The notes beneath the pieces are model-generated. The model searched no databases. It saw only the letters and a list, made by a program, of their open reading frames with translations, and was not told the DNA's origin. The position numbers were made by a program, and so were the translations under genes. From Pseudomonadota bacterium (GTDB taxonomy: Bacteria; Pseudomonadota; Gammaproteobacteria; Burkholderiales; Burkholderiaceae_C), in the NCBI GenBank assembly GCA_030538605.1, contig JAUNTQ010000017.1, positions 1-47,939 of the forward strand: DNA of 47,939 bases. The letters run 5' to 3'. This document shows, one piece after another, positions 4,141 to 47,803 of this stretch. The first letter of the stretch is position 1, and each line of letters starts with the position of its first letter.

Positions 4141-4219
4141 ATAGCATCTTGCGCAGCTTATATATTGTTTTCAAATCATTTTCAATTGAAAATGGCTTAT
4201 ATACTACGCAAGCAGCTAC
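4141..4219. repeat. AGCTGCTTGCG palindrome, copy 1 (decayed left arm)
   Basis: Right arm TACGCAAGCAGCTA is intact and followed by a T-run. The left arm is altered (CTTGCGCAGC). The AT-rich middle pairs TTTTCAA with TTGAAAA. It lies between the divergent starts of thiG and dctQ. Confidence 0.8.
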
Positions 4220-4226
4220 TTTTTTA

Positions 4227-4625
4227 TTATCTCTTGTCCATGGTACAGGCAAAAACCAGCCTGTCTGGCCTGCGGGCGCCGCTTGCGGACGTTGGAGAAA
4301 GACTGCGGGCCGACGGGCGAGCGGACCCGGTTGAGCGGCTTTTGGCGCATGGGCGACCTGGGCGTGCGGGCATGTGTCGGGCCTGGCCACACGCACGCCG
4401 TGAGGGTTGAACCGGCGCGGCTCCTGCGCTTGCGCCGGGGGGGCCTGGCCAGGGTCGCCGGGCAAGGCCCCGATGCTAGGGAAATTGCTGTTTTCCGCTC
4501 GCAAACGTCTCATTACAATCGCGCACCGCTTGGCGCCCGGCGGGTGTGACCCACCTGCCGCGGCGCTGTTCTTTCAGGCCGGGCGCAAACCCCATGCCCG
4601 CGCCATCCACTCCACGGAGACACCC
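4227..4625. other. Non-coding leader region before dctQ
   Basis: About 400 bases between the palindrome and dctQ. No convincing gene is seen; the frames open here lack family features or ribosome sites. A possible -10 element TACAAT lies at 4514-4519 without a clear -35 at normal spacing. A GGGTTGAACC string at about 4402-4411 resembles part of a thi-box, but the rest of a TPP aptamer is absent. Confidence 0.5.
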
Positions 4626-5240
4626 ATGCAAGCGCTCTTGAAGATCTCGCGGGCCATTGACTGGCTCAACGCCCAGGCGGGCAAATGGATCATCTGGCTC
4701 ATCTTTGCCGCCACCTTCATCAGCGCCACCAACGCCGTGGTGCGCAAGGCGTTCAACTACAGCTCCAACGCCTTTCTCGAAGTGCAGTGGTATCTCTTCG
4801 CCTGGTCGTTCCTGCTGGCGGCGGGCTACACGCTGCTGCACCGCGAACATGTGCGCATCGACGTGCTCAACAGCCGCCTGCCCATGAAGGCGCGCATCTG
4901 GATCGACATCATCGGCTTTGCGCTGTTTCTCACCCCGCTGTGCCTGCTGGTGCTGTACCTGGGCATTCCGATCGTGATCGACAAGTTCCAGTCGGGCGAG
5001 ATGTCGCCCAACGCGGGCGGGCTGGTGCGCTGGCCGGTGTGGCTGGCCATGCCGCTGGGCTTTGCGCTGCTGATGCTGCAAGGCTTTTCCGAGCTGATCA
5101 AGCGCATCGCCTTTCTGCGCGGCATCGGGCCCGACCCCTTCAGCCGCCTAACCGAGCAGTCCGCCGAGGACGAGCTGGCCGCCGCCCTGCGCAGCGAAAC
5201 CGAAGCCAAGGAAGCCGCCGCTGCCGCGGGCGCGCGCTGA
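4626..5240 (+). CDS. dctQ: TRAP transporter small permease (DctQ family)
   Basis: 204 aa from the ATG at 4626, preceded by GGAGA. Four hydrophobic segments are visible: about 18-38, 54-75, 95-120 and 136-156. The first is preceded by WLNAQAGKW, and the loop LLHREHVRIDVL is typical of DctQ. It forms the membrane complex with the large permease encoded 36 bp downstream and takes ligand from a periplasmic binding protein, using the ion gradient. The cytoplasmic tail is Ala/Glu-rich. The longer open frame upstream to 4407 is rejected because the family begins here and the ribosome site fits. Confidence 0.92.
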   Translation: MQALLKISRAIDWLNAQAGKWIIWLIFAATFISATNAVVRKAFNYSSNAFLEVQWYLFAWSFLLAAGYTLLHREHVRIDVLNSRLPMKARIWIDIIGFALFLTPLCLLVLYLGIPIVIDKFQSGEMSPNAGGLVRWPVWLAMPLGFALLMLQGFSELIKRIAFLRGIGPDPFSRLTEQSAEDELAAALRSETEAKEAAAAAGAR

Positions 5241-5276
5241 CGAACGACGCCGCACGCGCGCACAGGACACACCACC

Positions 5277-7184
5277 ATGGAATTCATCGCCACCAACTAC
5301 GCCCCGATCATGTTCGCGGGGCTGATCTGCTTTCTGATTCTGGGCTTTCCCGTGGCCTTCAGCCTGGGCGCCTGCGGGCTGTTCTTCGGCGTGCTGGGCA
5401 TCGAGCTGGGCATCTTCCCCTCCAGCGTGCTGGCGTGGCTGCCCCAGCGCCTGATCGGCATCATGGCCAACGACACGCTGCTGGCCGTGCCGTTTTTCAC
5501 CTTCATGGGGCTGATCCTGGAGCGCAGCGGCATGGCCGAAGACCTGCTCGACACGGTGGGCCAGGTCTTTGGCCCCATGCGCGGCGGGCTGGCGCTGGCG
5601 GTGATCTTCGTCGGTGCGCTGCTGGCGGCCACCACGGGCGTGGTGGCGGCCTCGGTCATCTCGATGGGCCTGATCTCGCTGCCCATCATGCTGCGCTACG
5701 GCTACGACCGGCGGACGACCTCGGGCGTCATCGCCGCCTCGGGCACGCTGGCGCAGATCATCCCGCCTTCGCTCGTGCTCATCATCATGGCCGACCAGCT
5801 TGGCCGCAGCGTGGGCGACATGTACAAGGGTGCGTTCATCCCCGCGTTCATGCTGGTGGGCATGTACGTGATGTACATCGTGGCGCTGGCCATCTTCAAG
5901 CCCAAGCTGGTGCCCGCGCTGCCCGTCGAAGCGCGCGCCTTTCGCCAGCCTGATGGCAGCAGCGGCTACCCCTCTTTGCTGGTGCTGGCCGTCATCTCGG
6001 CCGTGGTGGCCGTGGTGCTGGCGCGCCACATGCCCGAAGTACACACTTGGTGGCTGGGCAAGCCGGTGGACTCGGTGCCGACCGACGAAAAAATCGTCGT
6101 TGCCGCCTGCGGCGCGGTCGGCCTGGCCTGGCTGATTGCCATCGCCAACAAGCTGCTGCGGCTGAACCTGCTCTCGCGCCTGGCCGAGCGCGTGACCTTC
6201 GTGCTCATCCCGCCACTGCTGCTCATCTTCCTGGTGCTGGGCACCATCTTCCTGGGCGTGGCCACGCCCACCGAAGGCGGCGCAATGGGCGCCATGGGCG
6301 CGCTCATCATGGCGTTGCTGCGCGGGCGCATGAACCTGTCGCTGCTCAAGCAGGCGCTGGCGGCCACCACCAAGCTGGCCTCGTTCGTGATGTTCATCCT
6401 GATCGGTGCCACCGTGTTCGGCCTGGTCTTTCAGGCCGCCGACGGCCCCATCTGGGTCGAGCACCTGATGAGCCAGCTGCCCGGCGGACAGGTGGGCTTT
6501 CTCATCTTTGTGAACGTGCTCATCTTCTTCCTCGCGTTCTTCCTCGACTACTTCGAGCTGTCCTTCATCGTCGTGCCCCTGCTCGCACCCGTGGCCGACA
6601 AGCTGGGGATCGACCTCATCTGGTTCGGCGTGCTGCTGGCGGTGAACATGCAAACCTCGTTCTTGCACCCGCCCTTCGGCTTTGCGCTCTTTTTCCTGCG
6701 CTCGGTCGCGCCCGACAAGCCGTATGTGGACAAGGTCACCAAGAAGGTCATGGAGCCGGTGACCACCATGCAGATCTACAAAGGTGCCCTGCCCTTCCTC
6801 GGCATGCAACTCATCATGGTGGGCGTGCTGATCGCCTTCCCCACGCTGGTCACGGGCAGCCTGGACAAGAAGATCGACTTCGACATGGACGCCATCGGCC
6901 AGCAGATGCGCGACAGCCTGGGCACCGGCGGCAGCTATGGCGACACCGCACCCGCCACCACCGCTCCCGGCTGGGGCGGCGATTCGCTCTGGGGTGATCC
7001 ACCTGCCGGCGGCGCCGCACCCGGCACCAGCGGCACGGACACCCCCGCCGGCGATGCCGGCTGGGGCAACGACTCCATGTGGGGCAACGACGCCGCCGCC
7101 CCCGCCACGCCCGACGCCCCCGCCGAAGGCTACGGCAGCGACGACCCCGCCCAAGCCATGCAGGAGTCGCTGAAGGCGCAGTAA
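5277..7184 (+). CDS. dctM: TRAP transporter large permease (DctM family) with unusual C-terminal tail
   Basis: 635 aa, an integral inner-membrane protein with many hydrophobic helices. Family blocks include FPVAFSLGACGLFFG near 20-40, ALLAATTGVVAASVISMG near 115-132, SGTLAQIIPPSLVLIIMADQ near 160-180, and TPTEGGAMGAMGAL near 330. It carries out the substrate/sodium transport step, probably for an organic acid. Length and the central insertion fit the long DctM subclass of about 600 aa. The last 85 residues are different: low-complexity, soluble, Gly/Ala/Asp/Pro-rich, with two related units GWGGDSLWGD and GWGNDSMWGN. I know of no role for this tail. A hairpin terminator follows at 7217-7249. 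Confidence 0.93.
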   Translation: MEFIATNYAPIMFAGLICFLILGFPVAFSLGACGLFFGVLGIELGIFPSSVLAWLPQRLIGIMANDTLLAVPFFTFMGLILERSGMAEDLLDTVGQVFGPMRGGLALAVIFVGALLAATTGVVAASVISMGLISLPIMLRYGYDRRTTSGVIAASGTLAQIIPPSLVLIIMADQLGRSVGDMYKGAFIPAFMLVGMYVMYIVALAIFKPKLVPALPVEARAFRQPDGSSGYPSLLVLAVISAVVAVVLARHMPEVHTWWLGKPVDSVPTDEKIVVAACGAVGLAWLIAIANKLLRLNLLSRLAERVTFVLIPPLLLIFLVLGTIFLGVATPTEGGAMGAMGALIMALLRGRMNLSLLKQALAATTKLASFVMFILIGATVFGLVFQAADGPIWVEHLMSQLPGGQVGFLIFVNVLIFFLAFFLDYFELSFIVVPLLAPVADKLGIDLIWFGVLLAVNMQTSFLHPPFGFALFFLRSVAPDKPYVDKVTKKVMEPVTTMQIYKGALPFLGMQLIMVGVLIAFPTLVTGSLDKKIDFDMDAIGQQMRDSLGTGGSYGDTAPATTAPGWGGDSLWGDPPAGGAAPGTSGTDTPAGDAGWGNDSMWGNDAAAPATPDAPAEGYGSDDPAQAMQESLKAQ

Positions 7185-7216
7185 CCCACCCGCGCCGGGG
7201 CAGCGCACTGCCCCAA

Positions 7217-7249
7217 ACAAAAGCCGCACCCCACGAGGTGCGGCTTTTT
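7217..7249 (+). terminator. Intrinsic terminator after dctM
   Basis: AAAAGCCGCACC and GGTGCGGCTTTTT pair around CCACGA. A closely related hairpin lies at 7492-7521 serving the opposite strand, and both are followed by similar GCAGGCATCC / CCAGGCATCC text, so they may be diverged duplicates. Confidence 0.85.
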
Positions 7250-7277
7250 GCGTTGCAGGCATCCCTGTCGGGTAGTT

Positions 7278-7353
7278 GCAGGCTGGGTAGAGCGCAGCGA
7301 AACCCAACAAGCCGGCTCGCGAGAACGCTGGGTTTCGCTCTACCCTGCCTGCC
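7278..7353. repeat. GGCTGGGTAGAGC...GCTCTACCC inverted repeat, copy 1
   Basis: Arms GGCTGGGTAGAGCGCAGCGA and GGTTTCGCTCTACCCTGCC are complementary around a GCCGGCTCGCGAGAACG centre. Related copies occur at 44264-44348 and at the right end of the window. Confidence 0.8.
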
Positions 7354-7491
7354 AAGGGGATGGCAGCCATGCCAGCCGCAAGGTGAAGCGAGGGTGGCTT
7401 GCCCTCACCCCTGCCCGCTCCCAGAGGGAGAGGGAGCAAAACCGAGCGCCAGGCGGAAAACACGCCCAACACTCCCATCACACCCCAAAAC
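7354..7491. other. Repeat-rich gap between convergent dctM and dctP
   Basis: Together with the neighbouring hairpins this fills the 415-base gap. It contains a short CCCTCACCCCTGCCCGCTCCC block near 7405, the same family as the inserts in thiDE. I see no gene in it. Confidence 0.6.
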
Positions 7492-7521
7492 AAAAGCCGC
7501 ACCCCGAAGGGCGCGGCTTTT
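7492..7521 (-). terminator. Intrinsic terminator after dctP (works in either direction)
   Basis: AAAAGCCGC and GCGGCTTTT form a 9-bp stem around an 11-nt loop. It lies 79 bp beyond the dctP stop on the minus strand. Confidence 0.75.
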
Positions 7522-7599
7522 GCGCTCCAGGCATCCATGCCCGGGCTTGCACCGGGTATCGGATGCGCCCCCCCGCGACAGCAAGGGGAGGGAGGCGCG

Positions 7600-8682
<1,083 letters not shown>

Positions 8683-8810
8683 ATGCCTTTATCTCCTTGA
8701 CTATTGGGAACGTGTGAGGCCACGCAGTGTAACGGCGCAGGCACACCTTGGGCCTAGGGATTCACCCGCCGCCAGGAGAAAAGCCAGAGGACGAGAAAAC
8801 AACAAAACAA

Positions 8811-8887
8811 TAGCTGCTTGCGCGTGCAATTAAACAATTTTATAAGAAAATCTTATGAAATCTATTAAATACACGCGCAAGCAGCTA
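8811..8887. repeat. AGCTGCTTGCG palindrome, copy 2
   Basis: TAGCTGCTTGCGCGTG pairs with CACGCGCAAGCAGCTA. The AT-rich centre pairs TTTAATTG-type text with CTATTAAA imperfectly. A run of As precedes it and Ts follow. It lies 12 bp beyond the ridA-like stop. Confidence 0.9.
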
Positions 8888-8898
8888 TATTTTTTAAT

Positions 8899-9270
8899 TC
8901 ACGCAAGCGCCGCCGTGGCCACCACTTCAATGCGCCACGCCGGGTCGCCCAGGCGCGCCTGCACCGTGGCACGCGGTGGCGTGTGGCCGGGCACCACCCA
9001 GGCGTCCCACACCTCGTTCATGGCGTGGATGTCGTCGATGTCGGCCAGGTAAATCTGCACGCGCAGCAGGCGGCTTTTGTCGCTGCCGCAAGCCGCCAGA
9101 TGCGTGTCCACCTGCGCCAGCACATCGGCCGTCTGGCCGCGCATGTCGGCGGCACCGCTCTCGGGCACCATGCCGGCCAGATACACCACGCCGTTGAACA
9201 CCGCCGCTTCCGACAGGCGCGGGCCGACGCCGTGGCGGTGCACGGCAGGTGATGGGGTTGGCGTGCTCAT
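8899..9270 (-). CDS. RidA family protein (reactive imine deaminase-like)
   Basis: 123 aa from ATG 9270, which overlaps the plsY stop by four bases (ATGA). The YjgF/YER057c/UK114 fold is indicated by [14 protein letters not shown] near 25-38, [22 protein letters not shown] near 48-70, and a C-terminal [19 protein letters not shown]. The conserved Arg in RATVQA (about 101) is the ligand-binding arginine of active RidA proteins. RidA hydrolyses 2-aminoacrylate and other enamines. Subgroup and substrate cannot be set from sequence alone. It is cytoplasmic and translated with plsY. Confidence 0.88.
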
Positions 9271-9890
9271 GTTTTCTTGCGTCCCAGTTTGGATTCGGTG
9301 CCCGCCAGCAGTCGCTGGATGTTCTCCCGGTGGCGCCAGACGAGCAGCGCCGCCATGGCCAGCATGGCCAACGCTTTCGCGCCGCTGGCCTGCCAGGCCA
9401 CGCCGTCTCCCATCAGGTAATACGCCGGGGCAAACAGCGCCGCCACCATCGATGCCAGCGACACGTAGCGGAAGAAAAACACGATGATGGCGAAGCTCAC
9501 CACCGTGGCCAGCGCCAGCAGCGGCTGCAAGGCCAGCAGCACGCCAACAGCCGTGGCCACGCCCTTGCCGCCCTTGAAGCCGAAGAACACCGGATACAGG
9601 TGCCCCAGAAACGCCGCCAGCCCGGCCAGCGCCTGCGCGCCCTCGCCCAAACCCAGCGGCCCGCCAAACCAGCCAATCAAGGCCACCGGCAGCCAGCCCT
9701 TGGCCGCATCCAGCAGCAAGGTGACCACCGCCGCCGCCTTCGAGCCCGAGCGCAGCACGTTGGTCGCGCCCGGGTTGCCGCTGCCATAGCTGCGCGGATC
9801 GGCCAGCCCGAACGCGCGGCTGACGATGACCGCAAAACTGAGCGACCCGATCAAATACGCCGCCAACGCGGCCAACACGGTTTGCAGCAC
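9267..9890 (-). CDS. plsY: Glycerol-3-phosphate acyltransferase PlsY
   Basis: 207 aa, inner-membrane enzyme that moves the acyl group from acyl-phosphate to glycerol 3-phosphate, the first step of phospholipid synthesis in the PlsX/PlsY route. Motifs are [14 protein letters not shown] at 34-47, the phosphate-binding [10 protein letters not shown] near 104-113, and a third conserved region [13 protein letters not shown] near 187-199. Five or so hydrophobic helices are visible. Its stop overlaps the ridA-like start. The long open frame continuing upstream of 9890 is repeat DNA rather than coding. Confidence 0.96.
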
Positions 9891-9996
9891 CCGCTCCCAC
9901 CTTCTTCACACACGAAAACCGGCATTGTGCCGCGCCCTTGGCTACGCGCCTGAAACGCATCGCAGCTATCCATTGCGCTGACGCGCCGCCCGCACG

Positions 9997-10173
9997 GCAT
10001 GAAACGCCAGCGGTGCGCGATGACGAATGACTGCGTTCTGGCGAGCGCATGACGAATGACTGCGCCTTCGGCGCATGACAAATGACCACACGCACCCACT
10101 GGCACGGCACCTTTGTCATTTGTCATGGCGCGCCAGCGCCGATCATGGAGCGAAGCGAAGTCATGTTTCACTT
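9997..10173. repeat. TTTGTCATTTGTCATGGCGCG element, copy 1
   Basis: An inverted element: left arm GACGAATGACTGCGTTCTGG and GCGCATGACAAATGAC face right arm GTCATTTGTCATGGCGCGCC. It ends ATCATGGAGCGAAGCGAAG-TCATGTTTCACTT. The left half is partly duplicated in this copy. It fills most of the gap upstream of plsY. Copies 2 and 3 are at 11018-11155 and 12644-12782. Confidence 0.85.
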
Positions 10174-10293
10174 AAGGGCCGCGCAGCAGGCCCTTTCCAA
10201 AGGCCGCGGAGCAGGCCAGTCCAGGGCCGCCCGAGCCGGGGTTCCCCCGGCGACCAGCGGCGTCCCCCTCAGGGGGAAGGCGCCGAAGGCGAC
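10174..10293. other. Repeat-derived gap before the TauE-like gene end
   Basis: Contains a GGGCCGCGCAGCAGGCCC hairpin and the start of a CCCCCTCAGGGGGAAGGCGCC repeat. No gene is seen. Confidence 0.5.
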
Positions 10294-10310
10294 TCAGGGG
10301 GGAGTCATGC
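10261..10310. repeat. CCCCCTCAGGGGG / GCGCCGAAGGCG repeat overlapping a gene end
   Basis: The string GTCCCCCTCAGGGGGAAGG, then CGCCGAAGGCGACTCAGG and GGGGAGTC, is a nested palindromic repeat of a type common in Comamonadaceae. Its right end encodes the last codons and stop of the TauE/SafE-like gene. Confidence 0.65.
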
Positions 10311-10974
10311 ACCACGGCGCCTGATCGTGCGCCAGGCCCATCCACAGGCCCCAGCCCGCCGTCAGCAGCAGGGCCAGCCCGGCCAGGCGCATGCCCCATT
10401 GGCCGCGCCCGTTGCTGCCCAGGCGCAGCAGCAGCCACGGGCCGACGAGCAGCGACAGGCCGGAGCCGAGGGCAAAGACGGCCATCACCGCCGCGCCCCC
10501 GGGCACGCTGCCCGCCAGCGCGGCCACCATGACGGCCGAGTACAGCAGCCCGCAGGGCAGCAGCGCCCAGGCCACGCCCAGGCCCAGCGGGGCCATCAGT
10601 CCGGCGCGCTGCGTGGCGCTGCGCACGCGCGCCCACACGCGGCGGGCGCCGTTTTCCAGCCACACGGGCTGGCGCGCCTGAATCAGCAGCATCAGCCCCA
10701 GCACCACCGCCGCCACATGCACCATGCTCCACACCGGGCGCAGCGCAGCCGAATGCACGGTGAGCCAGCCCAGCCCCTGCATGGTGGCTGCCGCCAGCGC
10801 GCCCAGCGCGGCATAGCCGGCCATGCGCCCGGCCTGGAAGATGGCGATGGCCTGCGTGCTGCGCGGCGCCGCCGCCTGCCCGATGCCGGCGCAGGCCGCG
10901 CCGCACATGGCAATGCAGTGCGGGCCGCCGGCCAGGCCCATCACGAAGGCGGTCATCAAGAGAGAGGTTTGCAC
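10294..10974 (-). CDS. Sulfite exporter TauE/SafE family (COG2836-type) membrane protein
   Basis: 226 aa from GTG 10974; ATG 10956 is an alternative, and neither has a strong ribosome site. The open frame further upstream is repeat sequence. Six or so hydrophobic helices are visible. GGPHCIAMCGAACAG at about 16-30 is the HxxxMC-type signature of the membrane family often found beside ccoNOPQ, hemN and fnr. It may move a metal or reductant for cytochrome assembly; the family's function is not well settled. PLGLGVAWALLPCGLLYSAV near 140 is a second conserved block. The last residues, MTPP, are read from a dispersed repeat. Confidence 0.8.
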   Translation of the reverse strand: MQTSLLMTAFVMGLAGGPHCIAMCGAACAGIGQAAAPRSTQAIAIFQAGRMAGYAALGALAAATMQGLGWLTVHSAALRPVWSMVHVAAVVLGLMLLIQARQPVWLENGARRVWARVRSATQRAGLMAPLGLGVAWALLPCGLLYSAVMVAALAGSVPGGAAVMAVFALGSGLSLLVGPWLLLRLGSNGRGQWGMRLAGLALLLTAGWGLWMGLAHDQAPWCMTPP

Positions 10975-11017
10975 GGCTTGGGCTTGCAGGGTGGGTGGGA
11001 AGCATTCACGGCGTTGC

Positions 11018-11155
11018 GCATGAAGCGCATGACGAATGACTGCGCTCTGGCGAGCGCATGACAAATAACCCACGACCCGGCATGCACAGCGCTTTTGTCA
11101 TTTGTCATTTGTCATGGCGCGCCAGCGCCAGTCATTGAGCGCAGCGAAGTCATGT
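11018..11155. repeat. TTTGTCATTTGTCATGGCGCG element, copy 2
   Basis: Left arm AATGACTGCGCTCTGGCGAG and GCGCATGACAAAT; right arm TTTGTCATTTGTCATGGCGC, GCCAGCGCCAGTCATT. One seven-base unit (TTTGTCA) is repeated an extra time. It lies between the TauE-like gene and hemN. Confidence 0.85.
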
Positions 11156-11202
11156 GTGCGCCCTTTGCACAAAAGGACATGCGCCGCAGGCGATTCAACG
11201 GC

Positions 11203-12585
11203 TCATATTATTTTCGAGAAGCGTGCCCGCGTGCGGTCGGCCTGCAAATACCGGTCGAACACCATGGCCACCCCGCGCACGAAAAACCAGCCGGTGTCGG
11301 TCACGCGGACGCCGCTGTCGCTGACCGTGACCAGCCCTTGCGCCTGCATGCCGTGCAGGGTTTGCAGCTCGGCGGCGAAGTACTCGCCAAAGTCGATCAG
11401 GTGCGCCAGCTCGATCGACTCGAACAACACCTCGCCCTGGCACATCAGCGCCATGATGACGGCGCGGCGCGCCAAGTCGTCACGCGTGACGGCCAGGCCG
11501 CGCACCACGGGCAGCTGGCCGTGGTCAAGCATGTCCTGGTATTCGTCCAGCGTCTTGGCGTTCTGGCTGTAGGTGGCGCCCACCTTGCCGATGGCCGACA
11601 CGCCCAGGCCGATCAGGTCGCAATCGGGCTGCGTGCTGTAGCCCTGGAAGTTGCGGTGCAGCCGGCCCTGGCGCTTGGCCACGGCCAGCGCGTCGTTGGG
11701 CAGGGCGAAGTGGTCCATGCCCACGTAGACATAGCCCGCCTGCTCGAACGCCGCCAGCGAGCGCGCCAGCATGGCCACCTTGCTGGCGGCGCCGGGCAGG
11801 TCGATGGCGATGATGCGCCGCTGCGGCTTGAAGCGCTCGGGCAGGTGCGCGTAGGCGTAGAGCGCGATGCGGTCGGGCCGCAGCTCGGCCACTTGCGCCA
11901 GCGTGCGGTCGAAGGATTCGGGCGTCTGCTTCGGCAGGCCGTAGATCAGATCGACGTTGACCGACTCGAAGCCGATGCGCCGCGCGGCATCGACCAGGGC
12001 AAACACGTCTTCGGCGGGCTGGATGCGGTGCACCGCCTTTTGCACCAGCGGGTCGAAGTCCTGCACGCCAAAGCTCAGGCGGTTGAAGCCCAGCCGCGCC
12101 AGGTGTTCGAGCCGCGCCTCGGTGACGGTGCGCGGATCGACCTCGATGGAGTATTCGCCCCCGGCCACCAGGTTGAAGTTGCGCCGCAGCATGGCCATCA
12201 GCTCGCTCAGTTCGGCATCGCTGAAGAAGGTGGGCGTGCCCCCGCCCAGGTGCAACTGGCTCACCGTCTGGCCTGCGCCGATGTGCTGCACGTGCAGATC
12301 GACCTCGCGGCTCAGGTAGCGCAGATAGGGCGCGCTGCGCTCATGGTGCCTGGTGATGATCTTGTTGCAGGCGCAGTAGTAGCACAGCGATTCGCAGAAC
12401 GGCACATGCACGTAAAGCGACAGCGGCAGCGCCATGGCGAAGGGGCCGGTGCGGCGCTGGTCGAGCGCTTGCAGGTATTCGCCCTGGCCAAAGGCTTCGA
12501 CGAAGCGGTCGGCCGTGGGATAAGACGTGTAGCGCGGGCCGGGCACGTCGAAACGGGTCAGCAAATCGGCGGTGATGGCGGGCAT
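11203..12585 (-). CDS. hemN: Oxygen-independent coproporphyrinogen III dehydrogenase
   Basis: 460 aa from ATG 12585, chosen because GAGGA lies seven bases upstream; an in-frame start at 12603 lacks this. It is a radical SAM enzyme: CESLCYYCAC holds the CX3CX2C cluster cysteines (64, 68, 71), preceded by LYVHVPF. HLGGGTPTF near 110 and GVQDFDPLVQKAV near 170 are HemN-specific. It converts coproporphyrinogen III to protoporphyrinogen IX without oxygen, in the cytoplasm. It lies divergent from fnr, with FNR-like boxes in the shared region, fitting anaerobic control. Confidence 0.97.
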   Translation of the reverse strand: MPAITADLLTRFDVPGPRYTSYPTADRFVEAFGQGEYLQALDQRRTGPFAMALPLSLYVHVPFCESLCYYCACNKIITRHHERSAPYLRYLSREVDLHVQHIGAGQTVSQLHLGGGTPTFFSDAELSELMAMLRRNFNLVAGGEYSIEVDPRTVTEARLEHLARLGFNRLSFGVQDFDPLVQKAVHRIQPAEDVFALVDAARRIGFESVNVDLIYGLPKQTPESFDRTLAQVAELRPDRIALYAYAHLPERFKPQRRIIAIDLPGAASKVAMLARSLAAFEQAGYVYVGMDHFALPNDALAVAKRQGRLHRNFQGYSTQPDCDLIGLGVSAIGKVGATYSQNAKTLDEYQDMLDHGQLPVVRGLAVTRDDLARRAVIMALMCQGEVLFESIELAHLIDFGEYFAAELQTLHGMQAQGLVTVSDSGVRVTDTGWFFVRGVAMVFDRYLQADRTRARFSKII

Positions 12586-12643
12586 CGGGCAGTCCTCGGT
12601 CAATTCATTTCAGTTGTCCATGGCGCTACACGCCATCCGCATC

Positions 12644-12782
12644 GCATGAAACGCATGGCGAATGAGCGCGCTCTGGCGAGCACATGACCAATGACGAAGC
12701 ACATCCGCTCGCATGGCTGTTTTGTCATTTGTCATGGCGCGCCAGCGCCGATCATTGAGCGAAGCAAAGTCATCTTTCACTT
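12644..12782. repeat. TTTGTCATTTGTCATGGCGCG element, copy 3, with flanking 10-nt direct repeats
   Basis: Left arm CTCTGGCGAGCACATGACCA, right arm TTTTGTCATTTGTCATGGCG and CGCCAGCGCCGATCATT. The block is bracketed by TTCAGTTGTC at 12609-12618 and 12781-12790, which looks like a target-site duplication. It lies between hemN and fnr. Confidence 0.85.
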
Positions 12783-12877
12783 CAGTTGTCTGCGGCGCTC
12801 GTGCACCACCCGCCGCGCGTGTCACGGTCCATCGGCCCGCAGCTGGTGGACTGTGACGCGCGCGCGGCGCGTTTGCC

Positions 12878-12891: not shown

Positions 12892-12917
12892 TTCGCCCGA
12901 AGCCGCCGCCACCCGGC

Positions 12918-13776: not shown

Positions 13777-13870
13777 TTCACCGCAGAGGGGCGGAGAACG
13801 CAGAGCTTCGCAGAGGAAAACCATGAAACCTCTCTGCGAAGCTCTGCGTTCTCTGCGCCTCTGCGGTGAA
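13777..13870. repeat. CTCTGCGG / CTCTGCG inverted repeat, copy 1
   Basis: Arms of about 41 bases (TTCACCGCAGAGG... and ...CCTCTGCGGTGAA) pair with only a few mismatches around AAAACCATGAAA. It lies in the convergent gap after fnr. Related, more decayed sequence occurs at 46690-46815. Confidence 0.85.
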
Positions 13871-13886
13871 ATGAATCAAAAATACC

Positions 13887-13966
13887 ATAGCTGCTTGCGT
13901 ACGATTTAAAACAAATTCAACATGATTTCATATTGAAAAGGTTTTAAAACGTACGCAAGCAGCTAT
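13887..13966. repeat. AGCTGCTTGCG palindrome, copy 3
   Basis: ATAGCTGCTTGCGTACG and CGTACGCAAGCAGCTAT form a perfect 17-bp stem. TTTAAAAC and GTTTTAAA continue it inward, with a short loop near CATGATTTCATA. It lies in the convergent gap between fnr and the YdcH gene. Confidence 0.95.
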
Positions 13967-17347: not shown

Positions 17348-17427
17348 ATAGCTGCTTGCGTACGTTATAAAACAAATTCATATACTTTTGTATATAAAAT
17401 CGTTTAAACACGTACGCAAGCAGCTCA
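17348..17427. repeat. AGCTGCTTGCG palindrome, copy 4
   Basis: ATAGCTGCTTGCGTACGT pairs with ACGTACGCAAGCAGCT. The right tip is CTCACTTTTTT, while the left tip is CATAGC, so the two known tip types are mixed in this copy. It sits 14 bp after nfeD and 40 bp before the SPFH gene, inside a probable operon. Confidence 0.93.
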
Positions 17428-27082: not shown

Positions 27083-27163
27083 GTGAGCTTCTTTCGTACA
27101 ATATAAAACAATTTCATCATACTTTATATGTGAAAACGTTTTATAACGTACGCAAGCAGCTCA
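27083..27163. repeat. AGCTGCTTGCG palindrome, copy 5
   Basis: Right arm CGTACGCAAGCAGCTCA is intact; left arm GTGAGCTTCTTTCGTAC has two changes. Inner TATAAAACAATTTCA pairs with TGAAAACGTTTTATA. It lies between the LhgO-like gene and the binding-protein gene, 27 bp beyond the latter's stop. Confidence 0.9.
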
Positions 27164-31048: not shown

Positions 31049-31128
31049 ATAGCTGCTTGCGTATTGTTTAAAACGTTTTTGTTATTCTTTATATCTGAAA
31101 ACGTTTTAAACCATACGCAAGAAGCTAT
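31049..31128. repeat. AGCTGCTTGCG palindrome, copy 6
   Basis: GATAGCTGCTTGCGTAT pairs with ATACGCAAGAAGCTAT; inside, TTTAAAACGTTTTT pairs with GAAAACGTTTTAAA. It starts 16 bp after the dehalogenase stop. Confidence 0.93.
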
Positions 31129-39113: not shown

Positions 39114-39138
39114 CAGGCTTGCCGATATGCTTGGCCGC

Positions 39139-39357
39139 ATGAACATTGCCGACCTGGACTACCGCAGCCTGCCCGTTGCCCAGCGCCTGCAACTTGTCGG
39201 CGACATCCGGGACAGCATTGCCACTGAAGCGCCCGATGCACTTGAGCCGTCCACCGCCGACAAGGCCGAATGGCACCGTCGGCTGGCAGCGCATGAGGCC
39301 GACCCTGGCAACGCCGTACCTTGGCCTACCTCCCCATCCGAAGGAAACACCCCATGA
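39139..39357 (+). CDS. Orphan addiction-module antitoxin-like small protein
   Basis: 72 aa from ATG 39139. [18 protein letters not shown] near 11-28 and [16 protein letters not shown] near 47-62 match the family of addiction-module components (pfam09720), normally followed by a RelE-type toxin. No toxin is here: the stop overlaps the accD start by four bases (ATGA). It lies 25 bp after trpA in the same run of genes. It may be a relic or a domesticated regulator; its coupling to accD is unusual. Confidence 0.82.
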
Positions 39358-40229
39358 GCTGGCTCGAAAAACTCCTCCCCCCGAAAATCCAACCCTCTGA
39401 AAGCGGCGAGCGCCGCCAGCAGATGCCCGAGGGGCTGTGGATGAAATGTCCGCAGTGCGATGCGGTGCTCTACAAGACCGATCTGGAAGGCAACCAGAAC
39501 GTCTGCCCGCAGTGCGAGCACCACCACCGCATCGGCGCGCGCGAGCGGCTGAACATGTTTCTCGACAACGAGGGCCGCTACGAAATCGGGCAAGAGGTGC
39601 TGCCCGTGGATGCGCTCAAGTTCAAGGACAGCCGCAAATACCCCGAGCGGCTGAAAGAGGCGCTGGAGGCCACGGGCGAGACCGATGCGCTGGTCGTCAT
39701 GGGCGGCGCGGTGCACACCCTGAGCGTGGTGGTGGCGGCGTTCGAGTTCGACTTCATGGGCGGCAGCATGGGCAGCGTGGTGGGCGAGCGCTTCGTGCGC
39801 GGCGTCGAAACCGCCGTCGAGCAGAAAGTACCCTTCATCTGTTTTACCGCCACCGGCGGCGCGCGCATGCAGGAAGGGCTGCTCAGCCTGATGCAGATGG
39901 CCAAGACCAACGCCGCCCTCACCCGGCTGGCGAAAAAAGGGCTGCCCTATATCAGCGTGCTGACCGACCCGACCATGGGCGGCGTGTCGGCCGGCTTTGC
40001 CTTCGTGGGCGACGTGGTCATTGCCGAGCCGAAGGCGCTGATCGGCTTTGCCGGCCCGCGCGTGATCGAGAACACCGTGCGCGTGAAGCTGCCCGAGGGC
40101 TTTCAGCGCGCCGAGTTTCTGCAAACCAAGGGCGCGGTCGATTTCATCTGCGACCGGCGCCAGCTGCGCGAGAAGATCGCCAACGTACTCGCCATGCTGC
40201 AACGCCAGCCCGCCGACGCGGTGCAGTGA
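39354..40229 (+). CDS. accD: Acetyl-CoA carboxylase carboxyltransferase beta subunit
   Basis: 291 aa from ATG 39354, with AAGGAA upstream. Cys32, Cys35, Cys51 and Cys54 make the N-terminal zinc ribbon ([18 protein letters not shown] and VCPQCEHHH). The crotonase-type domain has [20 protein letters not shown] and [16 protein letters not shown]. It forms malonyl-CoA together with AccA. In many relatives folC follows; here a palindromic repeat and a convergent GAF gene do, so synteny breaks at this point. Confidence 0.97.
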
Positions 40230-40310
40230 AACCAGCCCGCGCAGGCCGCCAGGCCTTGCGGTGGCGGATGGGTGCCATGCACTGCATGGTCATGCGTCAA
40301 ACAAAAATAA

Positions 40311-40392
40311 GTGAGCTGCTTGCGCAGGCTATTCAACATTTTCAGATATATATCTATCTGAATTCATTGAATAACCTGCGCAAGCAGCTCAC
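40311..40392. repeat. AGCTGCTTGCG palindrome, copy 7
   Basis: GTGAGCTGCTTGCGCAGG pairs perfectly with CCTGCGCAAGCAGCTCAC. CTATTCAA pairs with TTGAATAA, and CAGATA with TATCTG at the tip. Flanked by AAAAATAA and TTTTC. It lies in the convergent gap between accD and the GAF gene. Confidence 0.96.
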
Positions 40393-40461
40393 TTTTCATT
40401 TTTTCTGGATCACGCCAGTGCCGCCCGTTTTCAGGGCAGCGGCAGGTGCCGCCTTGGTGCA

Positions 40462-41169
40462 TCAGTGCGCCATGGGCGACAACTGCAAGCCGGGGTCGGA
40501 TGATGGGGGCGAGCGCTGTTGCAGCAGTTGCGCGACGTGGCGCGCCAGGGTGCGCAGGGCATGGCGCTGCGCGGGGTTGATGTCGCGCGCGTGGGTGTCG
40601 GCCACGCACACGGTGCCCAGCGCCAGGCCATCGTCCAGCACGATGGGCGCGCCAGCGTAAAAGCGCAGATGCGGGTCGTCCAGCACCAGCGGGCTGCCTG
40701 ACACGCGCGCGTCGGTGAGCGCGTTGTGCACCACCGTCAACTCGCCGGGATGGGCAACGGCGTGCTGGCAGAAGGACACCTCCAGCGGGGTGCAGTCCAG
40801 CGCCATGCCCACGCGCGCCTGAAACCACTGGGTGCCCTCGTCCAGCAGCGAGACCAGCGCAATCGGGGTGTCGCAGACCTGGGCTGCCATGTGGGCGATG
40901 AGTTGATAGGCCTCGTCGCCCTGGTGGCGCAGCGCGTCCAGCCGCGCCAGCGCCAGGGTGCGCAGCAGCGCCTGGTGGTCAGGGGCGGGATCCGGCGCCT
41001 CCAGCGGCTGCGCCTGTGCCTTAGTAGAGGGCGTGCCCGGCAGGGGCATGGACACCTTGGTGGCTGCCGCGCCCAGGCGCAGCACCTGGGCGTCCAGCGC
41101 CTGTTCGCGCGGCACACGGCCAGCACCGCCCCGCTGCCGGGATGTCCATTGACGAAAGAACCAGATCAT
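40462..41169 (-). CDS. GAF domain protein
   Basis: 235 aa from ATG 41169; ATG 41049 is an alternative. No strong ribosome site is seen for either. The region from about 80 to 220 is a GAF domain: ALVSLLDEGTQWFQARVGMAL, VSFCQHAVAHPGELTVV, PHLRFYAGAPIVLDDGLALG. The FCQHAV and FYAGAP blocks are like those of stand-alone GAF and GAF-GGDEF signalling proteins. No output domain is attached. Ligand and partner are unknown. The 170-base upstream region is AT-rich next to the start. Confidence 0.85.
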   Translation of the reverse strand: MIWFFRQWTSRQRGGAGRVPREQALDAQVLRLGAAATKVSMPLPGTPSTKAQAQPLEAPDPAPDHQALLRTLALARLDALRHQGDEAYQLIAHMAAQVCDTPIALVSLLDEGTQWFQARVGMALDCTPLEVSFCQHAVAHPGELTVVHNALTDARVSGSPLVLDDPHLRFYAGAPIVLDDGLALGTVCVADTHARDINPAQRHALRTLARHVAQLLQQRSPPSSDPGLQLSPMAH

Positions 41170-41339
41170 TATTTGAATATTTTTTGCTTAACTTTTTTGA
41201 AAATGAGCACGGAAAATACCACAAATCCCTGACGCGCCCGTAACCCTTGGGTGTATTCAATTTCTTTTGCCGTGCGATAAGCACGCGGCTGGCAAATGGT
41301 CTTGCCATCGCCGTCGGGCCGGGTGCTGGCAGGCGCGGC

Positions 41340-42857
<1,518 letters not shown>

Positions 42858-42926
42858 TTCGGGTACCCACTCCTTTGTTCGTCCGGTTGGCAAAAGACCC
42901 GCCCCCCGGCGCTGCGCGCCCAGGGG

Positions 42927-44000
42927 TCAGGGCAAGGGAATCAGGATACGGAAATCCGTCTTCCCGGGCTGGCTGTGCAGCTCGATCAGGCCGTGGTGCT
43001 GTTGCACGAAGGTTTGCGCCAGCGTCAGCCCCAGGCCGGTGCCGCCGCCACGCCCCGACACGAGCGGGGCGAACACGCGGTCCTTGATCTCGTCGGGCAC
43101 GCCCGGCCCGTTGTCGATGACATGCAATTGCAGTGCCAGGCGGTAGCGCTGCCCGCCGAAGGTGACTTGCCTGAGCACGCGCGTGCGCAGGACGATTTCG
43201 GCGTCGCCCTGGGCGATGCGCGGCTCCAGCGCCTGCGCGGCGTTGTGCGCGATGTTGAGCACGGCCTGGATGAGCTGCTCGCGGTCGCCGCGGAAGTCGG
43301 GCAGCGAGGTGTCGTAGTCGCGCACCACGGCCAGCCCCTTGGGAAACTCGGCCAGGATGAGCGCCCTCACCCGCTCGCAGACTTCGTGGATGTTCATCTC
43401 GGCCACCACCTGCGGGTGGCGGTGCGGCGCCAGCAGGCGATCGACCAGCGCTTGCAGGCGGTCGGCCTCGCGGATGATGACCTGCGTGTACTCGCGCAGC
43501 GAGTCGTCGGCCAGCTCCATTTCGAGCAGCTGCGCCGCGCCGCGGATGCCGCCCAGCGGGTTTTTCACCTCGTGCGCGAGGTTGCGAAACAGCGCCTTGT
43601 TGGCACGCGCCTCGGTGGCGATGCGCTCTTCGCGCGCCTGCCGCGCGTGCTGCGCCAGCGGCAGCAGCTCGACGATGGTCTCGCCGGGCGTGGGCGTTTG
43701 CGCCACGATGGCATGCACCGGCAGCAGCTCGCCGCCGTGGCGCTGCAACTGCGCGTCGTAACGCAGCGCGGCAAAGGCGTTGCCGCGCACGCCCTCCAGC
43801 GCATGCACGAGCGTGGCCGCGTCGGGGAAATAGGTGCGCAGCGGCGTGCCCTCGATGCTGCGCCAGGACAGGCCCACGGCGTCTTCCAGCGCGCCGTTGG
43901 CAAACGTCACCACGCCTTCGTCATCGACCACCGCCACCAGCGTGGGCAGCAGGTCAAACGCCTGAAAGCGCGCGGGATGGGGGCGATGGGCTGAGGGCAT
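42927..44000 (-). CDS. ntrB: Nitrogen sensor kinase NtrB (GlnL)
   Basis: 357 aa from ATG 44000. An N-terminal PAS-like domain (about 10-125) is followed by the phosphorylated His143 in LAHEVKNPLGG, the N box NIAHNAAQAL and the G2 box GGGTGLGLTLAQT. It is a cytoplasmic kinase/phosphatase governed by PII that phosphorylates NtrC. The gene order glnA, one extra gene, ntrB, ntrC is near-classical. A palindromic repeat lies 43 bp upstream of the start. Confidence 0.97.
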   Translation of the reverse strand: MPSAHRPHPARFQAFDLLPTLVAVVDDEGVVTFANGALEDAVGLSWRSIEGTPLRTYFPDAATLVHALEGVRGNAFAALRYDAQLQRHGGELLPVHAIVAQTPTPGETIVELLPLAQHARQAREERIATEARANKALFRNLAHEVKNPLGGIRGAAQLLEMELADDSLREYTQVIIREADRLQALVDRLLAPHRHPQVVAEMNIHEVCERVRALILAEFPKGLAVVRDYDTSLPDFRGDREQLIQAVLNIAHNAAQALEPRIAQGDAEIVLRTRVLRQVTFGGQRYRLALQLHVIDNGPGVPDEIKDRVFAPLVSGRGGGTGLGLTLAQTFVQQHHGLIELHSQPGKTDFRILIPLP

Positions 44001-44042
44001 GGAACAGATGCACTGCACCGTCAAAGGTGCTTTGGTGAAAAA

Positions 44043-44122
44043 TATAGCTGCTTGCGCATGTTAATAGGCATTTTCATAATCAAAACAACATGAAAACGCT
44101 TATAAACGTGCGCAAGCAGCTA
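44043..44122. repeat. AGCTGCTTGCG palindrome, copy 8
   Basis: TATAGCTGCTTGCGCATG faces CGTGCGCAAGCAGCTA; inner GGCATTTTCAT faces ATGAAAACGC. It lies between ntrB and the periplasmic protein gene. Confidence 0.92.
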
Positions 44123-44263
44123 CTGTTTTATTTGGAACGCCATCCACAAACCGACGGAGGTTCAGGCTGCCTGCCCATTCCCCCGCTGGGGGCTTGTGTA
44201 TGCACACATCTCGCTTTGCGTTGCACGAGCGATTTTTCCGACACCCTGAACAGGCCACCGCCT
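44123..44263. other. Repeat-flanked gap, no gene seen
   Basis: Part of the 459-base gap upstream of ntrB. It lies between the palindrome and the next repeat. I see no gene, hairpin with T-run, or clear promoter in it. Confidence 0.5.
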
Positions 44264-44348
44264 CGTAGGCTGGGTAGCGCCGAAGGCGAAACCCAGCGTT
44301 CTCGCGAACCGGGTTGCTGGGTTTCGCTTTCGCTCTACCCAGCCTACG
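44264..44348. repeat. GTAGGCTGGGTAGAGC inverted repeat, copy 2
   Basis: CGTAGGCTGGGTAGCGCCGA and CGCTCTACCCAGCCTACG are complementary, with a second pair AAACCCAGC / GCTGGGTTTCG inside. Same family as 7278-7353 and 47864-47939. Confidence 0.88.
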
Positions 44349-44395
44349 AAGATGTGTGCCTGCACAGGCCGCTGGGTAGGGGAGCAAGAAGCTTC

Positions 44396-44455
44396 TGGTT
44401 TTTCTTTTTCGCGTCCTTCGCGTATCTTTCGCGCCCTTCGCGTCCGCGCAGTTCG
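44396..44455. repeat. Short degenerate repeat CGCGTCCTTCGCG
   Basis: Tandem-like units CGCGTCCTTCGCG, TATCTTTCGCGCCCTTCGCG and TCCGCG just beyond the stop of the periplasmic protein gene. It resembles single arms of the CTCTGCG-type repeats, but the match is loose. Confidence 0.5.
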
Positions 44456-44459
44456 GCCT

Positions 44460-44984
44460 TCAACGCAGCCGGTTGAGCTCGCGCCGGATGCCGTCGATGT
44501 CGGCCTGGTTGCGGTCGATGCTGGCTTTCATCTCGGCCACGCGGTCGAGGTAGCGCTGGTAGTTGCGCTCGTTGCCCTGGCGCTCGGGCTCGCCGTTGTT
44601 GTAGTCCTTGAGCAGCTCGGCCTGGCGGCCTTCGGCGCGTTGCAGCTCTTGCTCCAGGATGGCGCGCGCGTCGGAGTCGCGCGCGCTTTGCTCGGGCGTG
44701 TTCACGCGCGGTGCGGCAGCGGGTGTGCCGGCGGGGCGCGGGGCGGCGGCGCTGCGGTTGGGAGCCGGGGCGGGCGCAGCGGCGGCGGCGGGGGCGGTGC
44801 CGCGCACCACGGTCACGTTGCCGCCTTCGACCAGCTTGCAGTCCTTGCGGCCCTTGATCTGGTTGGTGTATTCGTTGCCGCAGCGGTAGATGCGCTCTTG
44901 CGCGGCGGCGGGCATGGCGGCGCTGGCCAGCAGGCTGGCGGCCAGGGCGAGGCAGGGGGGCAGCAGGCGTGCGGTGGGGGTCAT
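44460..44984 (-). CDS. Periplasmic protein of unknown function with coiled coil, between glnA and ntrB
   Basis: 174 aa from ATG 44984. The signal peptide ends AAAQ (about 29). A short conserved-looking segment RIYRCGNEYTNQIKGRKDC has two cysteines (likely a disulfide), then an Ala/Pro linker, then a charged helical part (about 100-174) that can form a coiled coil. I recognise it only as a small exported protein seen beside glnA in related bacteria. It is likely read with glnA, though a terminator lies between them. Confidence 0.8.
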   Translation of the reverse strand: MTPTARLLPPCLALAASLLASAAMPAAAQERIYRCGNEYTNQIKGRKDCKLVEGGNVTVVRGTAPAAAAAPAPAPNRSAAAPRPAGTPAAAPRVNTPEQSARDSDARAILEQELQRAEGRQAELLKDYNNGEPERQGNERNYQRYLDRVAEMKASIDRNQADIDGIRRELNRLR

Positions 44985-45103
44985 GTGCGGGGTGCTCCAA
45001 GCGCGCGCCGGGGAACGGAAAAACCGGCGCGGGGGTGGGCCAAAACGGCAAGTATCGGCCATGTAGACCGCCCGCACCACCCTGCGTTCCCCGCCCGGTA
45101 TGT

Positions 45104-45129
45104 AAAAAGGCGGCACCGGGCCGCCTTTT
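45104..45129 (-). terminator. Intrinsic terminator after glnA
   Basis: AAAAGGCGGC and GCCGCCTTTT form a 10-bp stem around ACCGG, 40 bases beyond the glnA stop. It probably limits read-through from glnA into the downstream genes. Confidence 0.85.
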
Positions 45130-45168
45130 CGTGCAATCGTTGTGATACTGCCTAATGAAGGCCCTGCA

Positions 45169-46584
<1,416 letters not shown>

Positions 46585-46636
46585 TGCGGGGTTCTCCTAA
46601 GGGGGGGGGTCAAACAAAGCGGGTCGGGGGTGGAAT

Positions 46637-46652
46637 TGCAGCATCCGTGCCA
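46637..46652 (-). promoter_or_regulatory. Sigma-54 promoter of glnA
   Basis: On the minus strand TGGCACGGATGCTGCA fits TGGCAC-N5-TTGCA with one mismatch; the essential GG and GC are ten bases apart. The start of transcription would be near 46626, about 42 bases before the glnA ATG. Confidence 0.82.
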
Positions 46653-46689
46653 GCAAAGGGCGATTGTGCCAATAGCGGGGAGCCAGAGA

Positions 46690-46815
46690 GAACAGTCGGA
46701 CGCAGAGGACGCAGAGGACGCAAAGGTTTCGCAGAGAGCGCAGAAAGCAAACCAGAACAATCTGGGCTGTTCTTTTGCGTTCTCTGCGTGACTTCTGCGT
46801 TTTCTGCGTCCGGTT
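46690..46815. repeat. CTCTGCG-type repeat, copy 2, between glnA promoter and enhancer
   Basis: Left part GGACGCAGAGGACGCAGAGG..., right part GCGTTCTCTGCGTGACTTCT and GCGTTTTCTGCGTCC face each other around CCAGAACAATCTGGGC. Same family as 13777-13870, more decayed. Confidence 0.75.
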
Positions 46816-46828
46816 TTTCGGCTTTTGA

Positions 46829-46845
46829 TGCCCCACTTTGGGGCA
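46829..46845. promoter_or_regulatory. NtrC-like box 1 upstream of glnA
   Basis: TGCCCCACTTTGGGGCA is a perfect palindrome and matches TGCACCA-N3-TGGTGCA in 12 of 14 positions, the changes being symmetrical. Its centre is about 190 bases upstream of the sigma-54 promoter. Confidence 0.6.
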
Positions 46846-46856
46846 TTGCCACCGGT

Positions 46857-46873
46857 CGCACCAAGCTGGTGAA
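46857..46873. promoter_or_regulatory. NtrC-like box 2 upstream of glnA
   Basis: CGCACCAAGCTGGTGAA matches TGCACCA-N3-TGGTGCA in 12 of 14 positions. It lies 28 bases from box 1, centre to centre, and ends one base before the stop of the neighbouring gene. Confidence 0.6.
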
Positions 46874-46874
46874 T

Positions 46875-47696
46875 TCAAGGCCGCACCATCTCGGGGCCAT
46901 AGCGCAGCCCGAAGGGCAGCAGCCAGGCGCGCAGATCGGCATAGGCGGCGGGCACGGCGGCGGGCGCGCCTTTGACGCCCAGCTCGATGTGGGCACCGTG
47001 CACCGGGTGGTCCACGCTGGGCAGGCTGAACACCTTCACGCCGGGGTGGGCCGCTTCCACGCGCTCCATCACGGGGGTCAGCGCCGCTTCCATCGCGCCG
47101 TAGATCACCACCGACTGCTCCACCCAGGCGTTCTGGCCAAAGCAGTGCGCCCAGTCGGTGTCCAGCGCCCAGGCCATCATGGGCCAGGCCATCACCGGAA
47201 AGCCGGGGGTGAAATACACCGTGCCGCCGCCCTCGCCTGCCAGCGCAAAGCCGGGAATCTTGTTGTAGGGGTTGGGCACGATGCGCGCGCCCTGCGGAAA
47301 CACGCCCATGTTCAGCCGGTGCTGGTTGTCGGGGCGATCGGGCTGATACGCCTCGCCTTTTTCGCGCGCCACGTCCTGCATGCGCTCGTCGATCAGGCGC
47401 GCCGCCTCGGGGTGCAGCACCAGCGGCACGCCCAGCGCGGCGGCGGCGCATTGGCGCGTGTGGTCGTCGGGCGTGGCGCCGATGCCGCCGGTGCTGAACA
47501 CCACGTCGCCGCTGGCGAAGGCGCGTTTGAGCGTGGCCGTGATGCGCGCGGGGTCATCGCCCACGTACTCGGCCCAGGCCAGCGACAGGCCGCGCTCGGC
47601 CAGCAGCTCGATGCACTTGGGCAGGTGCTTGTCGGCGCGTTTGCCACTGAGAATTTCGTCGCCGATGACGATGAGGCCGAAGGTGGGTGGGGTCAT
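46875..47696 (-). CDS. CinA-N/MoaB-like molybdopterin-binding domain protein
   Basis: 273 aa from ATG 47696. The N-terminal MoCF-binding fold is shown by FGLIVIGDEILSGKRADKH at 6-24 and STGGIGATPDDHTRQCAAAA near 68-87, then VPNPYNKIPGF and VYFTPGFPVMAW. It resembles the first domain of CinA without the C-terminal amidase. Such proteins have been annotated as competence/damage-inducible protein A; their substrate is uncertain. It lies upstream of glnA on the same strand, and the glnA enhancer begins right at its stop. Confidence 0.9.
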   Translation of the reverse strand: MTPPTFGLIVIGDEILSGKRADKHLPKCIELLAERGLSLAWAEYVGDDPARITATLKRAFASGDVVFSTGGIGATPDDHTRQCAAAALGVPLVLHPEAARLIDERMQDVAREKGEAYQPDRPDNQHRLNMGVFPQGARIVPNPYNKIPGFALAGEGGGTVYFTPGFPVMAWPMMAWALDTDWAHCFGQNAWVEQSVVIYGAMEAALTPVMERVEAAHPGVKVFSLPSVDHPVHGAHIELGVKGAPAAVPAAYADLRAWLLPFGLRYGPEMVRP

Positions 47697-47724
47697 GGTG
47701 GTGGCAATGGTTTCTGAAAAAAGA

Positions 47725-47803
47725 GGAGCTGCTTGTGTATATTTTTAAACAAATTTCTATATGTTTATATATAAAAACCTTTTATAACATACGTAAACAG
47801 CTA
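47725..47803. repeat. AGCTGCTTGCG palindrome, copy 9 (decayed)
   Basis: AGGAGCTGCTTGTGTATAT faces ACATACGTAAACAGCTA; tip TTTCTATATG faces TATATAAAAA. Both arms have mutations. It lies 29 bp upstream of the CinA-N gene start. Confidence 0.85.

Follow-up and report, generated by a model that had tools for sequence, protein, structure and literature searches.

A large family of near-fixed 80-nt intergenic hairpins with terminator-like placement in a Burkholderiales genome

Nine similar palindromes recur between the genes of one 47,939-nt stretch of DNA (the window; contig C106), which raises the question of whether their folded form is maintained and what it might do there. An earlier note had described them as a family of ~80-bp palindromes with shared tips, and all nine were found in the window (Table 1). 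The tip sequence had been read correctly, but it is not exact in every copy: two of the 11 bases of the left tip are changed in copies 1 and 5, while copies 6 and 9 carry one and three tip changes. The bases further in vary between copies and yet pair within each copy (CGTACG, GCGCAGG and GCGTAT), just as described. With 25 to 33 Watson-Crick pairs among 38 mirrored positions, the copies exceed the best 80-nt stretches of 20 single-base shuffles of the window, which reached only 22 to 24 pairs. Since four other window sites (13784, 696, 168 and 7001) also attain at least 25 pairs, pairing alone is insufficient to single out the weakest copies; these are set apart by shared tips at fixed spacing. 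As had been claimed, none of the nine lies inside a predicted gene; hexamer-model gene calls place six of them no more than 50 bp from where a gene starts or ends, the note having described them as often 10-50 bp from a gene end.

Table 1. The nine element copies in the window (positions are those of the window; 80 nt in seven copies, 79 nt in the first two).
Copy	Position	Length (nt)	Gap	Neighbouring genes	Tips and pairing
1	4141..4219	79	divergent	ThiG gene start 93 bp away	left tip 2 mismatches, right tip exact
2	8810..8888	79	same-strand	10 bp past stop of minus-strand gene at 8899 (RidA-like domain)	
3	13887..13966	80	convergent	genes 133 and 72 bp away	33/38 Watson-Crick
4	17348..17427	80		13 bp past NfeD-like gene, ahead of Band_7 gene	
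5	27084..27163	80	same-strand	26 bp past SBP_bac_5 gene stop	
6	31049..31128	80		15 bp past stop of HAD-like gene (ends 31033)	
7	40312..40391	80	convergent	carboxyl transferase-like gene / GAF gene	
8	44044..44123	80	same-strand	43 bp ahead of histidine kinase-like gene start; 336 bp from upstream stop	
9	47725..47804	80	window edge	28 bp from start of minus-strand gene 46875-47696	

The window contains further inverted repeats. One at 13777-13870 (TTCACCGCAGAGG...CTCTGCGGTGAA-like) adjoins copy 3, has looser kin at 46690-46819 and resembles a repeat beside an element copy in contig C122 near 118726. Another palindrome (47872-47939; arms GGTAGAGCCGAAGGCGAAACCCAGC / GCTGGGTTTCGCCTTCGGCTCTACC) has a similar counterpart at 44256-44356, and inverted repeats of the CCCTCACCCCAGCCCCCTCCCC type occupy 675-877, with similar text in a gap of contig C232.

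A covariance model built from the nine copies gave at least 150 matches in the genome (a 3.77-Mb draft in 234 contigs), all with E < 1e-14; copy 7, which belongs to the training set, was the top match among the best 150 scored. An earlier tip rule had made 104 calls, as against 6 in the reversed control; 20 of the 104 fell within genes, and almost all of these 20 had 4 or 5 tip mismatches. We then relied on a symmetric profile built from 68 of the tip-rule copies, which was scanned over 1,522,303 bases in 39 contigs or stretches, some of them picked because they hold copies. This profile revealed 168 matches above 25 bits and 167 above 40 bits, as against 0 in reversed sequence, so the family is not limited to about nine members; nor is it limited to this genome, since relatives carry copies. 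One match below 35 bits was left out of the position counts, which therefore refer to 167 copies. Exact 11-mer tips occur 263 + 243 = 506 times genome-wide, compared with 2 + 2 = 4 for the reversed 11-mer. Extrapolation from the 741 kb of long contigs analysed first, with their 72 copies, gives ~366 copies for the whole genome, and the exact tips give 354 to 393; both are rough estimates.

Each copy has a GC-rich outer stem (AGCTGCTTGCG/CGCAAGCAGCT) whose 11-nt tips stand 54 nt apart, and inward of it a variable stretch, an inner stem with TTTCA/TGAAA (TTTCAG...CTGAAA in most relatives) and a short A- or T-rich loop. The element is 34% GC in this genome. Its flanks are AT-rich to ~14 nt, usually with an A-run before and a T-run after, some sides being reversed. 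At flank positions -3 to -6, T replaces A on ~12 to 18% of sides, which leaves such a side without a U-run for outgoing transcripts. Length varies very little: 137 of the 167 copies have the standard length, 25 are one and 5 are two nucleotides shorter, and 0 are longer. A search of the 1.52 Mb for isolated half-elements, which fragments shorter than half would escape, found none above 25 bits, 2 above 20 and 6 above 15 (control 2), compared with 332 arms in full copies. Copy-to-copy identity among the 137 copies averages 0.70 and is at most 0.90 for nearest neighbours, which argues against a recent burst. The family is thus real and large, and its copies are diverged yet intact. Short hairpins with the tip AGCTGCTTGCGC that close after a few bases were also seen, with 13 pattern matches in 1.52 Mb (control 0), some apparently in genes. 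The pattern matched 6 times in 400 kb of Ottowia beijingensis, where at least one match seems to be a long copy. Such short hairpins may be a sister form of the 80-nt element.

To what extent do the arms of a copy change together? In 130 standard-length copies of assigned gap class, within-copy pairing was 3716/4680 as against 3496 ± 19 for random partners, with a maximum of 3563 in 5000 shuffles, so arms pair better with each other than with arms of other copies. In mutual-information rankings, mirror pairs were 7 of the top 36 column pairs for 68 copies from this genome and 2 of 36, one of them ranked top, for 41 copies from other genera. In 45 cross-genus copies, whose outer stem is invariant because they were picked by exact tips, 76.3% of cells pair (70.4% when shuffled) and two-sided changes occupy 183 cells, as against 108 ± 8 after shuffling and 81-114 when slid. 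The mismatches are less uniform. Near-stop same-strand copies have more G-U than A-C mismatches (117 vs 83 overall, 100 vs 56 in the interior), with the tips showing the opposite, contrary to RNA selection (A-C 17 vs G-U 4). The G-U and A-C counts were 34 vs 33 in same-strand copies far from a stop, 16 vs 12 in divergent copies and 76 vs 56 in convergent copies, the tips of the latter giving 10 vs 4. Covariation, from which it had been argued that the folded form is maintained or that arms are copied from each other, is therefore real, both between copies and among the Comamonas orthologs described below, where it is strong in one set and weak in the other.

Placement relative to genes can give clues to function. 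Genes were called with an in-house hexamer model that was checked against Pfam on 19 window ORFs. None of the 167 copies lies wholly inside a predicted gene, and 11 overlap one by at least one base. They are distributed over same-strand (93), convergent (55) and divergent (11) gaps, with 8 at edges, and the difference between convergent and divergent gaps is significant given the intergenic bases per class (p 3e-9). Same-strand copies lie close behind the upstream gene, as 61 of 93 begin at most 30 bp past its stop (25.2 ± 3.7 expected for uniform placement in the same gaps); the next start is equally near for 14 of the 93. Of the convergent gaps, 55 of 179 have a copy when all stretches are counted, and 20 of 79 when the count is confined to the long contigs analysed first. 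This location after genes and rarity in divergent gaps is that of an intrinsic terminator.

Several further properties point in the same direction. The mean predicted RNA fold of the copies is -37.5 kcal/mol, compared with -11.0 for single-base shuffles, and the outer stem is closed in 146 of 148 predicted folds. As in terminators, the stable hairpin leads directly into a T-run in most copies, namely in 53 of 70 same-strand copies near a stop and in 50 of 55 convergent ones. Among gaps of at least 40 bp once the copy is excised, those with a copy less often contain another canonical terminator, both in convergent (5/48 with vs 26/82 without a copy; p 0.006) and in same-strand gaps (2/81 vs 51/467; p 0.014). 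Where the earlier note had left the choice between two-way terminators and processing sites, this positional evidence favours a terminator-like role.

Other observations speak against it. In near-stop same-strand copies an upstream A-run (60/70) is more frequent than a downstream U-run (53/70; p 0.07); a U-run on the transcribed side is seen in the Comamonas sets A and B but is not favoured in this genome, and the near-stop tip mismatches favour A-C. A copy in Comamonas kerstersii (L052) directly precedes an ordinary terminator, and of the 147 copy-bearing gaps of the same-strand and convergent classes in this genome, 7 also contain such a terminator. At one site in this genome and at one in O. 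beijingensis, an insertion parts genes that overlap in the other of the two species, and copy 4 sits between genes that adjoin closely in 14 relatives. Moreover, termination alone is an insufficient explanation for the near-fixed length.

We further followed individual copies through orthologous gaps of Comamonas. Set B consists of 13 orthologs of one copy (L082), with left flanks 84 to 100% identical, found in 13 of 19 aligned gaps; read by eye, the six gaps without the element show, at the same place, a short GC hairpin with a run of five or six T behind it. Pairing in this set was 356/494 as against 308 ± 9 (maximum of 5000 shuffles 347), with at least two Watson-Crick types in 19 of 38 pairs, G-U mismatches exceeding A-C (46 vs 24; p 0.012), and six T right after the hairpin in 13 of 13. 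In two members (L281 and L285) the tips of both arms are changed. Set A comprises 10 orthologs of another copy (L062), which lies between same-strand genes by the ORF list. Here the signal was weak (pairing 280/380 vs 260 ± 6, shuffle maximum 282; G-U 32 vs A-C 23, p 0.28); all 10 orthologs have a T-rich tail, and 2 of them an upstream A-run. For the outer 14 pairs of both sets, G-U exceeds A-C by 17 to 3 (p 0.003, counted over cells, which are not independent events). For each of the 23 copies in these two sets the best-fitting length was 80 nt, in a fit slightly biased to 80, while the surrounding gaps vary from 159 to 177 nt. A third set (C) has the element in two gaps (80 and 79 nt) and lacks it in one; further searches gave one ortholog pair for L087 and two gaps without a clear copy for L052.

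How far the element extends among relatives was assessed with models and with exact tips. Matches to model R1 were obtained in 13 of 41 genomes, all of the same genus. Model R3 matched at least 26 of 200 family genomes and at least 19 of 141 genera, the matches listed being full length; these counts are lower bounds, as at most 19 best candidates were scored per genome. A model of the outer stem only (R2) contributes to no result. Among the records listed, the exact-tip pair occurs in Comamonas species, O. beijingensis (at least 11 stretches), Acidovorax sp. MR-S7, Paenacidovorax caeni and an Alicycliphilus. Exact tip pairs 50-58 nt apart number 132 here, 1 to 7 in nine genomes and none in 240 of 250 family genomes, a sample that excludes O. 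beijingensis. A search for plasmid copies that used a single O. beijingensis copy gave no match.

Comparison of orthologous gaps, which the note had proposed as a check, revealed that sites differ between this genome and O. beijingensis. Among 36 conserved gene neighbourhoods, a copy is present only here in 7, only there in 3 and in both in 0, so that none of the 10 occupied sites is shared. This comparison set our own stretches against 400 kb of O. beijingensis, whose copies were called by the tip rule, which diverged ones may escape; for two of the 7 here-only sites (C12 49948 and C106 44000) the gene models on the O. beijingensis side are doubtful, and one gap scored as empty (opposite C122 118726) contains a short hairpin with the same tip. 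Copy 4 is absent from the aligned NfeD/Band_7 gap in 14 of 14 relatives, where this gap measures 40 to 114 bp.

What then spreads the element? A link to RAYT (TnpA-REP) genes had been suggested and found no support: this genome has two Y1-transposase-like matches, and a full element copy is present at one of nine Y1/RAYT-like loci, with a single tip (at most one mismatch) at 5 of the other 8. Words of the GGGGTCAGA type, of which 17 occur in 1.52 Mb, lie near 8 of the 9 Y1 loci and on both sides in 5 of the 9. RAYT as the mobiliser is therefore unsupported, as most of the RAYT-like loci have other repeats nearby and the element does not generally flank them as REPs or REPINs would. The GGGGTCAGA / TCTGACCCC words, close to the RAYT-like genes (L173 3137-3874; L174-L181) in 8 of 9 loci, are possibly the cognate repeat of those genes. 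In one genome (G013) there are 20 Y1-transposase matches; several of them score identically, a hint that an IS200/IS605-like element is active there.

Taken from sequence and predicted folds, our main reading is that the copies form one dispersed 80-nt hairpin family that probably acts as two-way intrinsic terminators, or otherwise fixes message 3' ends; we give this a probability of roughly 0.6. In the proposed mechanism, the inner stem would form first and the hairpin would zip outward through the weakly paired stretch to the GC-rich outer stem, which, once closed, would halt polymerase over the following U-run. Since the hairpin is symmetric, genes on both sides could be served. The family would also spread to new gene ends. 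An extended form of this reading, in which a self-dispersing terminator colonises gene ends, replaces ordinary terminators there and is then held at 80 nt by selection, is tentative, and we would wager somewhat against it.

The turnover of sites is what would be expected if the element were a mobile palindrome of the MITE or REPIN kind, non-autonomous, whose insertions merely favour positions behind stop codons and whose hairpin serves DNA mobility and not host RNA. Presence or absence at orthologous sites, as known for MITEs, is indeed observed, both in the O. beijingensis comparison and for copy 4, and copy number differs widely between family genomes. We nevertheless consider this explanation unlikely: 208 tests, which assumed symmetric ends, gave no target-site duplication (best z 2.5), isolated halves above 25 bits are absent from the 1.52 Mb, neighbour identity bears no trace of a recent burst, the Y1/RAYT-like loci mostly have GGGGTCAGA-type words in place of full copies, and orthologous copies stay in place across Comamonas species.

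Two further explanations concern the pairing and the length. DNA template switching could copy one arm onto the other and make pairing an unselected by-product, and covariation alone cannot tell such arm copying from selection; the similar G-U and A-C counts in far same-strand copies and in set A would fit this. The G-U excess in set B and in the outer pairs of sets A and B does not, and the post-stop placement and the scarcity of other terminators would require a separate cause, which makes template switching quite improbable. The element could also be a 3'-UTR stabiliser or processing site and not a terminator, its fixed length being a ruler for a binder of double-stranded RNA, for which RNase III, a ProQ/FinO-type protein or the like are candidates. 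Such a ruler would account for the 80-nt fit of the 23 copies of sets A and B in gaps of varying size, for the 80 and 79 nt of set C, and for the L052 copy upstream of a separate terminator. We give it little credence because gaps holding a copy have fewer other terminators and because T-runs flank most copies.

The note's remark that no named family matches held for what was searched: at gathering score, no Rfam family matched the element in the window, the sole match being a tRNA, and no named family fitted it in a literature search that covered few subscription papers. The words Comamona- and Acidovorax are absent from the main text of PMC3733652 and PMC2267715. The nearest known systems are BRE and the uptake-signal terminators. 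The latter, as described for Neisseria and Pasteurellaceae (Kingsford et al. 2007, PMC1852404), are inverted pairs of a conserved short word that form terminator hairpins, and the element is like them in having a conserved word in inverted pairs and hairpins at many gene ends. Unlike them, it has a conserved inner stem, a near-fixed length, tips 54 nt apart and rare single tips. Exact tips outside tip-rule copies were 13 of 113 in 809 kb, one of which the profile later called a copy. A DNA uptake sequence, for which frequent single words also within genes are expected, is disfavoured since single tips are rare. ERIC resembles the element as a long imperfect intergenic palindrome; its length and hosts differ, and it was set apart by description. 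ERIC is named in PMC3110155 and PMC2267715.

The Beta-proteobacterial repeat element (BRE) is described in PMC3110155 as ~90 bp long and mostly intergenic in Bordetella and Comamonadaceae, and is in these respects similar to ours. According to the same description, the Bordetella BREs have a mean of 69% GC, and some of them are partial copies or form tandem arrays; against the 34% GC of the element, identity with BRE was rejected on composition, without alignment. REP, REPIN and RAYT systems, as presented in PMC3733652, PMC2817692 and PMC8049555, likewise consist of dispersed extragenic palindromes in inverted pairs. They measure 20-40 nt, as against 80 nt for the element, and bear a GTAG or CGTC tag at one end (PMC3733652); the RAYT-like gene here adjoins another repeat. 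Like ordinary intrinsic terminators, which occupy the corresponding position in six relatives, the element has a GC-rich stem with a T-run behind it, and it differs from them as a near-fixed 80-nt hairpin with conserved outer and inner stems.

The general kind of dispersed hairpin is thus already known. New are a design that hardly departs from 80 nt, the absence of half copies and, at one gene, an exchange with ordinary terminators. The 80-nt span may exceed what common terminator predictors allow. If the terminator reading is true, a good share of the 3' ends in some Comamonadaceae would rest on one hairpin family, and if the terminator is also self-dispersing, some lineages of one bacterial family would have rebuilt many of their 3' ends from it. 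A near-fixed length without half copies, combined with site turnover, makes both terminator spread and length measuring testable.
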